Shown: positions 12,342-15,494 of the stretch, piece after piece
Layout: every line of letters begins with the position of its first letter
Numbering within the stretch: position 1 is the stretch's first letter
Source: Methanomassiliicoccales archaeon PtaU1.Bin124
GTDB taxonomy: Archaea > Thermoplasmatota > Thermoplasmata > Methanomassiliicoccales > UBA472
Direction of reading: 5' to 3'
DNA: 64,000 nt
Assembly: GCA_002067865.1 (NCBI GenBank)
Contig: MVRC01000013.1
Location: forward strand, 124,001 to 188,000
Program-made: the position numbers and the translations under genes
Notes under the pieces: model-generated
The model's input: only the letters and a program-made list of their open reading frames with translations
Databases searched by the model: none
What the model was told of the DNA's origin: nothing

Positions 12342-13106
12342 TCAACGGTCGCCCTCATCGTATATTGCCAGACCATAGACCAGACCGGACTTCGAAACGA
12401 CCTTTGGGCGATCGAAACCGGCGGAGATCAATGCCATTTCCAGTTCGGCTACGGTAGTTCCGGGGAGCTTGGACAATTTGCTGACATCGTTGAAGAAGAT
12501 CCTGGCAAAGAGGTTGTCCGTTCTCTCGATCTCCACGACGAGCAACCTCCCGTTGTTCCGCAGCAACGATCTGACCGAACGGAGATGAGCGATGATATCG
12601 ACCTTCTTCTCTCCCATCAAGCAGTTGATGCCAGTGAATGTCAGGACGGCATCGAATTTTTCTCCGGTCCGACCGGTGGAAGGATAGACGATCTCAGCCC
12701 CGTTGGTGAGGCCCCTCATATCGACCAGGTCCAGCGTTGAATAGACCTTCTCATGTTTTTTAATGTCTACCATCGGCCTGGCGTCTCGCATAATCGTATC
12801 GAGATACAGCGAAAGGTCACAACAGAACAACTTGGCGGTGCTGGTGATGCTAGCCCTCAGTTGCTTTTTTCCTTTCGGGGTGAGGTCGTAGATCTTCTTC
12901 CGGACGGATCCGGATATTTCGACGTGAAAATGGATAAGGCCCTTCGCGGTCAGGTCGTCCAAGACCGGATAGATCGTCCCGGGGCTCTTCAGCTTCAGCT
13001 CCTTCATCATCTCCTTTCCATACATCGATCTCCCGTTCAACAACAGCATGATCCTTTCCTGGAGCGGCCCCGATATGGGCTGTCTCGATGAGCGATCGGA
13101 TGTCAT
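12342..13106 (-). CDS. PadR-family regulator with truncated methyltransferase-like C-terminal domain
   Basis: A 254-residue protein. Residues about 10-100 form a PadR winged helix: ISGPLQERIMLLLNGRSMYG, KSPGTIYPVLDDLTAKGLI and VRKKIYDLTPKGKKQL. The second half (about 130-250) reads like the back half of a SAM methyltransferase (FDAVLTFTGINCLMGEKK, LLRNNGRLLVVEIER, ELEMALISAGFD), but the usual glycine-rich SAM loop is absent, so it may be a ligand sensor rather than an enzyme. The ATG at 13106 is chosen from the PadR start; the frame is open further. It is divergent from the ArsA-like operon and overlaps its 5' leader region, and an inverted repeat lies beside both starts. Confidence 0.72.
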   Translation of the reverse strand: MTSDRSSRQPISGPLQERIMLLLNGRSMYGKEMMKELKLKSPGTIYPVLDDLTAKGLIHFHVEISGSVRKKIYDLTPKGKKQLRASITSTAKLFCCDLSLYLDTIMRDARPMVDIKKHEKVYSTLDLVDMRGLTNGAEIVYPSTGRTGEKFDAVLTFTGINCLMGEKKVDIIAHLRSVRSLLRNNGRLLVVEIERTDNLFARIFFNDVSKLSKLPGTTVAELEMALISAGFDRPKVVSKSGLVYGLAIYDEGDR

Positions 13107-13130
13107 CGGTATCGGGAACCAACACCAACG

Positions 13131-13138
13131 GTTATAAG
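13131..13138 (+). promoter_or_regulatory. TATA box of the ArsA-like operon
   Basis: GTTATAAG, centred 28 bases before the ATG at 13163, consistent with a leaderless operon mRNA. Confidence 0.55.
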
Positions 13139-13139
13139 A

Positions 13140-13158
13140 ATATCGGCAAATCCGATAT
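13140..13158. promoter_or_regulatory. Inverted-repeat operator candidate
   Basis: A perfect 7-base inverted repeat, ATATCGG-CAAAT-CCGATAT. It sits between the TATA box and the ArsA-like start and just upstream of the divergent PadR gene. Bound protein here would block initiation of the operon. Half-site copies (ATCGG, CCGATAT) recur on both sides. Binding by the adjacent PadR protein is inferred. Confidence 0.55.
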
Positions 13159-13162
13159 CGAG

Positions 13163-14092
13163 ATGACCGATATGGTACAAAAAACGATGAGGGAGATAGC
13201 CCAGCAAAGAAAATATCTGTTCTTCGGAGGAAAGGGGGGCGTCGGCAAGACCACCATGGCCGCAGCGACATCTCTGTGGCTGGCAGATCATGGATACAAT
13301 ACTCTGGTGATCGCCACCGACCCTACGGTCAGCCTGCCGGAGATCTTCGGACAGCGCATCGATGGGACCGAACCGACGAAGATAGATGGGGTGGAACGAC
13401 TGCACGGACTCAACATCAACCCCAAGGAGGCGCCGGGCGTGTTCCAGAGGAGGTTGGAGGGGATGACCAGCGGGTTCGGGAACCCGCTCGATAAGGAGAT
13501 GATGAGCACGCCATGTGCCGAGGAGATGGCCGCCTTCGATCAGTTCGTCGGTTATCTCCAGGACGAATCCTACGAACGCATTGTCTTCGACACCGCGCCC
13601 ACCGGTCACACTCTACGGGAACTATCCATGCCGTTCGATTGGTCCACGTTCATGGCCGACCAGATCAGGGACAGGAAGGTATTGGCCTCATCCCTCGGAT
13701 GGAACGACCCCGAGGAAACATTGGGCATGCTGAGGAAAGAGAAGGAGAGGTACGACAACGCCATCGCCACGTTGACAGACTCGAGCACGACCGCCTTCAA
13801 CCTGGTCCTCTTGGCTGAAAAATTGCCATTGGAAGAGACGGCCAGGGCGGTGAAGGACCTGAAAGGGTTCGGGATCCAGGTCCCATCGCTGATCATTAAT
13901 CTGGTCATTCCGCCGGAGTCTCTCCAAGGCAATCAGCTCCTTACTCGAAGGAGCGAGAACCAGGCAAGGTACCTCGGCGAGATCGCCAAGAGGTTCGATC
14001 AAAAGGCCATCATGACCGTTCCGCTGCTGGACCGGGACGTCCAAGGGCTGGAGTCGTTGAGGTCGATCGGTCATGTTCTCTTCGGAGGCTGA
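13163..14092 (+). CDS. ArsA/Get3-family ATPase
   Basis: A 309-residue deviant P-loop ATPase. The ArsA/Get3 signature GGKGGVGKT is at residues 22-30, switch II is DTAPTGHT at 143-150, and C118 lies in STPCAEEMAAFDQF, matching the position of a metalloid-binding cysteine in bacterial ArsA. Only this one of the ArsA metal cysteines is obvious. The family either energises arsenite export or targets tail-anchored membrane proteins. No ArsB pump is present, and a thioredoxin-like protein and a flavin reductase follow, so a redox or metal-stress role is plausible. The start at 13163 is supported by the TATA spacing; the in-frame ATG at 13088 overlaps the PadR start. Confidence 0.82.
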   Translation: MTDMVQKTMREIAQQRKYLFFGGKGGVGKTTMAAATSLWLADHGYNTLVIATDPTVSLPEIFGQRIDGTEPTKIDGVERLHGLNINPKEAPGVFQRRLEGMTSGFGNPLDKEMMSTPCAEEMAAFDQFVGYLQDESYERIVFDTAPTGHTLRELSMPFDWSTFMADQIRDRKVLASSLGWNDPEETLGMLRKEKERYDNAIATLTDSSTTAFNLVLLAEKLPLEETARAVKDLKGFGIQVPSLIINLVIPPESLQGNQLLTRRSENQARYLGEIAKRFDQKAIMTVPLLDRDVQGLESLRSIGHVLFGG

Positions 14093-14096
14093 TCGG

Positions 14097-14408
14097 ATGA
14101 AGATCACCATCCTCTCGATCTCCTGCTGCAATCCCGCATTGAAAGGAGAGGACGAGGCATATCGAACAAGGGTCGAGGAGGTGCTTGGACAGATGAACGT
14201 TCCTGCCCAGGTCAACGTGATGACGATAACGGAGGCTATGTCCGCCATGAACGACAGGACAGTGGCCCAGCTTCGCCCCTTGGTGAACAAGTTCGGCATG
14301 TCGATCCTACCGGCCTTGTTGATCGACGACGACCTCGCTCTGTACGGGGGCATCCCTACTGCGGAAAAGATGAGCGAGGTCATAAAAAAACACGCAGGGA
14401 GGGTTTGA
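14097..14408 (+). CDS. Thioredoxin-like protein with vicinal cysteines
   Basis: A 103-residue thioredoxin-fold protein. It opens with a strand and then a vicinal cysteine pair (KITILSISCCNPALKG), followed by helices and the cis-proline strand FGMSILPALLIDDDLALYGG, typical of small thioredoxin-like and ArsD-like proteins. A CC pair rather than CxxC suggests metalloid or sulfur binding more than disulfide exchange. The ATG is four bases after the ArsA-like stop with GGAGG eight bases upstream, so the two are one operon, as in ArsD-ArsA pairs where ArsD hands metalloid to ArsA. That analogy is inference. Confidence 0.7.
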   Translation: MKITILSISCCNPALKGEDEAYRTRVEEVLGQMNVPAQVNVMTITEAMSAMNDRTVAQLRPLVNKFGMSILPALLIDDDLALYGGIPTAEKMSEVIKKHAGRV

Positions 14409-14409
14409 C

Positions 14410-14973
14410 ATGAAGAGGTCGTTGGGACCGTCCCCCCTTCTTTTTCCTTCACCCGCGATCGTCATCTGCTCCTATGACAAGGAGGGGAGGGCGAATGCGA
14501 TGACGGCCGCCTGGAGCGGCATATCCTGCTCGGACCCGCCATGCGTTTCGATATCGCTGCGGAAGGAGACCTACACCTACTGGAACATCATGGAGACCAA
14601 GGCCTTCACGGTCAACATTCCCTCCGAGGAAATGGTGCGGTCCGTCGATTCCTTCGCCATGACGTCCGGAAGGAAGGCTGATAAGTTGCGGAACGCTGGA
14701 ATGACGCCGATCCGTTCTGAAGTGGTGAACGCCCCGTTCATCGACGAGTTCCCCATGGCCCTCGAATGCCAAGCGGTCCAGTTCATTGAATTGGGGATGC
14801 ATACCATGTTCGTCGGCGAGATCAAGGACGTCAAGGTGTCCGAAGAGACCATCGGGAGGTCAGGCGAGGGGTTGATGATGGACATCAGACCGTTGGTATA
14901 TTCGCACGATGACCACTCATACTACTCGGTCGGAAAGAAGGTGGCGAATGTGGGGGTGAGCATCGGGCGGTGA
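14410..14973 (+). CDS. Flavin reductase-like (FMN-binding split barrel) protein
   Basis: A 187-residue member of the flavin reductase family. The usual features are present: a PSPAIVICSYDKEGRANAMTA segment lining the FMN site, SCSDPPCVSISLRKETYTY, and FTVNIPSEEMVRSVDSFA. Archaeal relatives bind FMN and transfer electrons, for example to flavoproteins or metal centres. It begins one base after the stop of the thioredoxin-like gene, so it is the third gene of the operon. Together the three could reduce and handle a metalloid, corrinoid or other redox-active species; the substrate cannot be read from the sequence. Confidence 0.87.
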   Translation: MKRSLGPSPLLFPSPAIVICSYDKEGRANAMTAAWSGISCSDPPCVSISLRKETYTYWNIMETKAFTVNIPSEEMVRSVDSFAMTSGRKADKLRNAGMTPIRSEVVNAPFIDEFPMALECQAVQFIELGMHTMFVGEIKDVKVSEETIGRSGEGLMMDIRPLVYSHDDHSYYSVGKKVANVGVSIGR

Positions 14974-15026: not shown

Positions 15027-15494
15027 ATGACCGTGCTCGAGACCGTAACATCCGTCGACATAAGTCGATATTTGGGGAAATGGTATGAGATAGCCAAGTT
15101 CCCAGTATCGTTCGAGAACGGCCTGGTCGGCATCACCGCCGAATATTCTTTATTGCCAAACGGTAAGGTCCGTGTGGTGAACAGTGGTCATGTGGGGAGC
15201 ATCGACGGAAAGTTGAAGGTCGCAAAGGGTAAAGCATGGGTAGTCGACAGAACGACCAACGCCAAACTCAAGGTCCGCTTCTTTTGGCCCTTTGCTGCCG
15301 ATTACTGGATCATCGAGCTCGGTGCCGACTATGAATATGCGGTGGTGAGCGGTCCGATGAAAAACTACCTGTGGATCTTATCGAGAAGGCCGGTGATGGA
15401 CGAATCGTTATACCAGGAGATCCTCGAACGCCTGCTGGAAAAAGGATTTGATGTTTCGAGATTGGAGAAGAACCTTCAATCGAGTGCGAAGTAA
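15027..15494 (+). CDS. Lipocalin (Blc-like)
   Basis: A 155-residue lipocalin. The family mark G-x-W occurs at residues 17-19 within SRYLGKWYEIAKFP, followed by beta strands such as ITAEYSLLPNGKVRVVNSG and YEYAVVSGPMKNYLWILSR, which match the bacterial outer-membrane lipocalin Blc and plant temperature-induced lipocalins. These bind lipids or hydrophobic ligands. No signal peptide is visible, so it is probably cytoplasmic here. Lipocalins are rare in archaea and the gene is likely bacterial in origin. It starts after GGTTGAT with an AT-rich promoter upstream, as its own transcript. Confidence 0.9.
   Translation: MTVLETVTSVDISRYLGKWYEIAKFPVSFENGLVGITAEYSLLPNGKVRVVNSGHVGSIDGKLKVAKGKAWVVDRTTNAKLKVRFFWPFAADYWIIELGADYEYAVVSGPMKNYLWILSRRPVMDESLYQEILERLLEKGFDVSRLEKNLQSSAK

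Follow-up and report, generated by a model that had tools for sequence, protein, structure and literature searches.

The window analysed here is a stretch of 64,000 nucleotides from contig MVRC01000013.1 of Methanomassiliicoccales archaeon PtaU1.Bin124 (assembly GCA_002067865.1; genome G000, 2.2 Mb in 18 contigs), and it contains a four-gene cassette built around a divergent promoter region. On the reverse strand, positions 12342–13106 encode a 254-residue regulator with a PadR winged helix and a tail that resembles a methyltransferase remnant. The forward strand carries, at 13172–14973, an operon of a single-domain ArsA-type ATPase (13172–14092, alternatively starting at 13163), a 103-residue thioredoxin-fold protein of ArsD/ArsE-like character with vicinal cysteines (14097–14408, hereafter CC) and a flavin reductase of the FMN-binding split-barrel type (14410–14973). 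The operon is tight, with intergenic gaps of 4 and 1 bp, and a terminator scan found no terminator at its 3' end. This arrangement and the nature of the three operon products had been proposed in a first-pass annotation, and both are confirmed by sequence and family models. All four genes are under purifying selection, with ratios of nonsynonymous to synonymous change (pN/pS) of 0.28–0.50 and a value of 0.35 for the regulator.

A survey for the same gene order elsewhere had been named beforehand as a test, and the order is indeed kept in a second genome, G223 (locus L049), making two of the 300 genomes of the class. Identity between the two cassettes amounts to 60 % for the regulator (orthologue at L049:6629-7369), 73 % for ArsA, 44 % for CC and 65 % for the flavin reductase.

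The 65-bp region between the divergent genes is identical at 56 of 65 positions, whereas only 44 of the 111 fourfold sites of ArsA are identical between the same genomes (a contrast of ~1e-14, assuming independent sites). It includes a TATA-like box, GGTTATAA (13130–13137), kept in G223 and putatively the promoter element; the palindromic TTATAA within it could allow the box to serve both genes. Between this box and the ArsA start lies the perfect 7-base inverted repeat that the annotation had described, ATATCGG-N5-CCGATAT, starting at 13140. Its inner part, TATCGG-N5-CCGATA, forms dyad 1 (TATCGGCAAATCCGATA, 13141–13157), while dyad 2 (TATCGAGATGACCGATA, 13156–13172) has one mismatch and overlaps both dyad 1 and the ArsA start. 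A further half-site, TATCGG, is located on the regulator side (13110–13115) and appears in G223 as the palindrome CCGATATCGG. Perfect 7-bp repeats of this kind occur in 25 of the 1084 59-bp tiles of the window, so that the repeat alone is not rare and its frequency would not by itself exclude chance. It stands above chance because the exact form with 6-bp arms is found only once in the 2.2-Mb genome (twice in G223) and because of the intergenic identity with G223, and on this conservation a chance repeat was rejected. The inverted repeat is thus a conserved operator, as had been claimed, to which the regulator would presumably bind. The second exact match in G223 (C48:564-580) was considered as a regulon site and discarded, as it falls inside the 3' end of an aldehyde dehydrogenase gene.

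The winged-helix domain of the regulator (residues 20–84, 12855–13049, reverse strand) is a certain PadR domain (PF03551, E 1.6e-11, 44.5 bits against a cut-off of 27), and the cassette accordingly has no repressor of the ArsR/SmtB family. After the wing comes a vicinal pair, Cys95-Cys96 (codons 12819–12824), followed by Cys162 (codon 12621–12623); all three are kept in both known orthologues, as Cys 93, 94 and 161 in G223. The pair may have a ligand or redox role, and Cys162 could act as a third ligand. The winged helix also matches MsvR weakly. MsvR is a redox regulator of methanogens.

The C-terminal half (approximately residues 148–248, 12363–12665) had been described as a methyltransferase-like domain without the S-adenosylmethionine (SAM) loop. 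The second part of this description is correct, since the GxGxG loop (motif I) is absent from residues 86–254; the kinship with methyltransferases has marginal support. The tail gives no Pfam match that counts, and a profile built from both tails picks up, weakly, two proteins identified by Pfam as class I methyltransferases (E 0.004–0.006), with hhalign values of 79 and 82 %. A truncated methyltransferase is therefore the likely, although not firm, assignment. ArsM was rejected as the origin of the tail, its hhalign value of 20 % being below that of UbiE-like proteins. The AlphaFold model of the regulator was unusable (predicted local distance difference test, pLDDT, 40) and was left out of the analysis.

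Matches to the regulator occur in 70 of the 300 class genomes, but it is full length only in the window genome and G223, and elsewhere the alignment mostly covers the winged helix. The tail scores clearly in only two of 389 genomes of the phylum, which hold no further orthologue and five weak matches; these were rejected, two containing stops (L135, L138), one lying in an unlikely frame (L134) and two being methyltransferases (L136, L137). The two sampled genus-mates of the window genome lack the regulator, and plasmids gave no tblastn match to it. We regard this protein as the most novel part of the cassette, whose anatomy otherwise resembles the metal-carrying half of an arsenic-resistance system.

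The ATPase belongs to the ArsA/Get3 family by both models (PF02374, 1.2e-71, 241.8 bits against 24.3; TIGR00345, 230.5 bits against 135), and archaeal relatives with solved structures match it at 7e-54 and 1e-49. It falls short of the pump-driving equivalog TIGR04291 (191 bits against 650), having one ATPase domain where two are required. Its only cysteine, C115 (codon 13514–13516), sits at the site of C113 and C422 of ArsA, the single metalloid-type cysteine foreseen in the annotation, and a homodimer would bring two of them together (for the cysteines of ArsA see PMC2440759). This residue, within the motif STPC[AT]EE, is present in all 35 ArsA rows paired with CC (28 distinct sequences once duplicates are removed) and aligns with both metalloid sites of the two-domain ArsA of locus L124, while the Get3-like paralogues L121 and L123 lack it. 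The tree joins the ArsAs of the two cassettes as sisters (100/100), and their long stem arises, at a tentative position, within the clade of the order, as would be expected for a paralogue with a changed role.

CC has two cysteines only, C10 and C11 (codons 14124–14129), invariant across 16 homologues in an alignment (A3) that excludes L064, a diverged homologue without the pair. Its structure model is confident (pLDDT 87.5) and shows a thioredoxin fold, as predicted for this vicinal-cysteine protein, and a Foldseek search with it returned ArsD chains at ranks 1 to 4 (best E 4e-3). All 16 aligned members match TIGR00412 and PF13192, the window protein reaching 23.1 bits on the former (cut-off 62).

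CC is found in 15 of the 300 class genomes, including 11 of the 13 genomes sampled from the window's family. A pattern search of genome_contigs gave 20 CC loci from 63 stretches, labelled mostly Methanomassiliicoccales. After removal of seven contigs seen twice, 29 loci remain besides the window, and ArsA adjoins CC in 27 of them, L064 and L099 being the exceptions. By this distribution, ArsA and CC form a pair of long standing in the order. The window genome itself has a second pair, L051 (G000:C6), the putative parent, whose intergenic region contains neither half-site. In the flavin reductase tree (PF01613, 3.2e-33, 115.5 bits against a cut-off of 27 for the window protein) the two cassette copies are again sisters, and a copy of genome G200 linked to a CDF-type exporter gene comes next. 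We infer that two modules conserved in the order contributed the operon genes as paralogues, which then came under the control of a new regulator.

Beyond the cassette, genes for a flavin reductase, a CDF-type exporter and a RACo-type corrinoid activator form a conserved cluster at five genomic places. The housekeeping ArsA-CC pair, for its part, lies divergent from a heliorhodopsin gene (PF18761) and beside a protein with ACT and metallo-beta-lactamase domains in 8 of the 29 distinct CC loci (L051:6167-9907, L050, L055, L056, L058, L061, L062 and L096), all from the window's family or labelled so. This neighbourhood is a lead on heliorhodopsin function; the searched text of two papers that treat heliorhodopsin neighbours (PMC8612252, PMC11109279) does not mention ArsA.

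Taken together, these features would fit a chaperone cassette, inducible and without a pump of its own, that handles a metalloid or soft metal with affinity for thiols, the likeliest ligand being a trivalent arsenical or antimonial; to this reading we assign a probability of about 0.5. Mechanistically, the PadR-type repressor would sit on the two overlapping dyads 3' of the shared TATA-like box, repressing both the operon and its own gene. Release would follow when Cys95-Cys96, possibly with the help of Cys162, is oxidised or captures a thiophilic ligand. The methyltransferase remnant would serve as an effector or dimerisation domain and would not methylate. CC would bind the ligand through Cys10-Cys11 and hand it over to ArsA, in whose homodimer the two Cys115 pair; ATP hydrolysis would then pass the ligand to an ACR3 pump encoded elsewhere, or the ligand would be held. 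The flavin reductase, in turn, would supply reductant, either for the reduction of pentavalent arsenicals or for keeping thiols reduced.

Apart from the conserved metalloid-type cysteine, an independent link with arsenic comes from a peat archaeon (L099), in which counterparts of CC and of the flavin reductase stand among ars genes. One strand carries the genes for a B12-binding protein, ACR3, ArsM and the flavin reductase (42 % identity with the window protein); ArsR is divergent at the far end of this set, and CC and an AhpD-like gene are convergent to it. ACR3 and the arsenite methyltransferase ArsM pass their NCBIfam cut-offs, and an ArsA-CC pair of the ordinary kind is present in this genome as well (L187). 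To this extent the metal or metalloid handling suggested by the annotation is supported. An ArsC-family gene, its best model below cut-off, follows another ArsA-CC pair at 1.4 kb (L098), and ArsR-like genes lie 2–4 kb from seven pairs, which is weak evidence given that those genomes are closely related. ACR3 scores above cut-off in 10 of the 15 genomes examined. Within the order, Methanomassiliicoccus luminyensis CZDD1 is described as demethylating DMAs(III) (PMC10579292) and an environmental Methanomassiliicoccus as carrying an ars operon with acr3 (PMC7824343); the host-associated genomes analysed in the latter work are said to miss the pump-driving ATPase genes.

Several observations weigh against this interpretation. 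No efflux pump, ArsC or ArsR is found on reading the whole operon, so that the absence of a pump noted in the annotation stands. The only ACR3 of the window genome is encoded elsewhere (G000:C13:223337) and has its own ArsR. Since this pump and its ArsR lie 35 kb away, the description of the system as self-contained was wrong, the modules being moreover paralogues of older ones with other neighbours. Most ArsA-CC pairs likewise have no ars pump nearby. ArsA, with its single cysteine, lacks a C172-type residue. As for CC, the third cysteine of the ArsD triad Cys12-Cys13-Cys18 (PMC4562236) is missing, the ArsD model NF033727 gives 18.2 bits against a cut-off of 90 (the ArsD of L124 scores 95.2) and is reached at E 0.01 by one of the 16 members, and comparing its profile directly with that of the ArsD found in the family yields 9 %. 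VIA-align does not separate ArsD (Z 8.1) from thioredoxins (Z 8.6). Judged by the curated models, CC falls outside the canonical ArsD proteins. The surroundings of the relatives point elsewhere too: the five nearest flavin reductases outside the cassette (L169, L170, L171, L172, L173) have genes for a CDF-type exporter and a RACo-type corrinoid activator as neighbours (assigned by Pfam for two CDF and one RACo, and by eye for the remainder), and the G223 cassette (L049:1-14000) is flanked by genes for an aldehyde dehydrogenase, an AhpC-type peroxiredoxin, an ABM monooxygenase, pirin, FMN_red and a prismane-family protein.

The last of these neighbourhoods suggests a cassette for thiol or oxidative (or nitrosative, or electrophile) stress, in which the regulator would be a disulfide switch, CC a carrier of disulfides or persulfides fed with electrons by the flavin reductase, and ArsA a redox holdase. 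The thioredoxin fold of CC and the weak resemblance of the winged helix to MsvR agree with it. However, CC has no CxxC motif, the metalloid-site cysteine of ArsA is invariant, L099 groups CC and the flavin reductase with arsenic genes, and no stress genes of the G223 type adjoin the cassette in the window; we hold this explanation possible but rather unlikely. The flavin reductase neighbours could instead indicate a module that delivers a metal cofactor or soft metal, tied to corrinoid or metal homeostasis and not to detoxification, yet genes of the CDF and RACo types adjoin the cassette neither in the window nor in G223, which leaves this improbable. The family TIGR00345 includes Get3 as well, and the archaeal relatives with solved structures would be compatible with a Get3-like ATPase that targets tail-anchored proteins together with a small partner. 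Against such a role, which we deem very improbable, the best matches are ArsA proteins, the window genome has a separate Get3-like paralogue in L121, and it would not explain why the ATPase shares its control with a flavin reductase and with a regulator that bears cysteines.

A narrower proposal concerns the ligand of the chaperone cassette. Canonical ArsD and ArsA use three thiols, whereas CC (Cys10-Cys11) and an ArsA homodimer (its two Cys115) would each provide just two, and the regulator has one vicinal pair, Cys95-Cys96. Because methylarsenite needs only two ligands, as described for SpArsR (PMC11868830), the cassette might be directed at methylated trivalent arsenicals, in an order from which the demethylation of DMAs(III) cited above is described, with the remnant methyltransferase domain recruited to the PadR protein as the sensor. 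Cys162, as a third thiol of the regulator, could weigh against this proposal, which we consider decidedly unlikely.

Compared with known systems, the cassette is by its gene content not a canonical ars operon. With the ArsD-ArsA half of arsRDABC-type operons (for example L124 in G200) it shares the C113/C422-type cysteine, the adjacent vicinal-cysteine thioredoxin-fold protein and a regulator gene alongside; its ArsA, however, is single-domain and without C172, its CC is without the third cysteine and scores below the cut-off of the ArsD model, pump, ArsC and ArsR are missing, and a flavin reductase is added. The fold of CC is common to the small thioredoxin-like MTH895/ArsE family (Thioredoxin_3), but the motif is of the CCxP type, not CxxC. 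Repressors of the AfArsR/SpArsR type likewise have vicinal cysteines after a winged helix, AfArsR using Cys95, Cys96 and Cys102 and the two-cysteine SpArsR responding to methylarsenite (PMC11868830). The cassette regulator differs from those described there in being PadR and not ArsR/SmtB, in its attached methyltransferase-like remnant and in that its ligand is only proposed. Archaeal single-domain ArsA homologues in pump-less operons outside ars operons are also treated by Castillo and Saier 2010 (PMC2963123), where the partners named are CstA and gas-vesicle proteins, and not CC, flavin reductase or PadR. A literature search of open-licence papers found no description of this cassette or of a PadR-methyltransferase arsenic sensor.

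The cassette hints at a novel means of dealing with arsenic-like poisons. If the chaperone interpretation is true, methanogens of rice paddies and wetlands would have an inducible carrier of arsenicals or similar metalloids in which a novel type of sensor controls two older, re-wired modules, and the function of the ArsA-CC pair across the order would become directly testable. The operator is short and conserved, and suited to footprinting, and the small size of the proteins would permit transfer assays in vitro.

Some further observations concern the surroundings of these genes. In L099 (8562-11613), the B12-binding, corrinoid-type protein is encoded between ArsR and the ACR3-ArsM genes and may be relevant to the addition of methyl groups to arsenic or their removal from it. 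A near-canonical ars operon with two-domain ArsA, ArsD, an ArsE-like protein, ACR3, ArsC and ArsR is present within the window's family (L124:999-7606, G200). In the window, a Blc-type lipocalin gene (PF08212, 7e-43) follows the operon at 15027–15494, while the G223 cassette is flanked by other genes.

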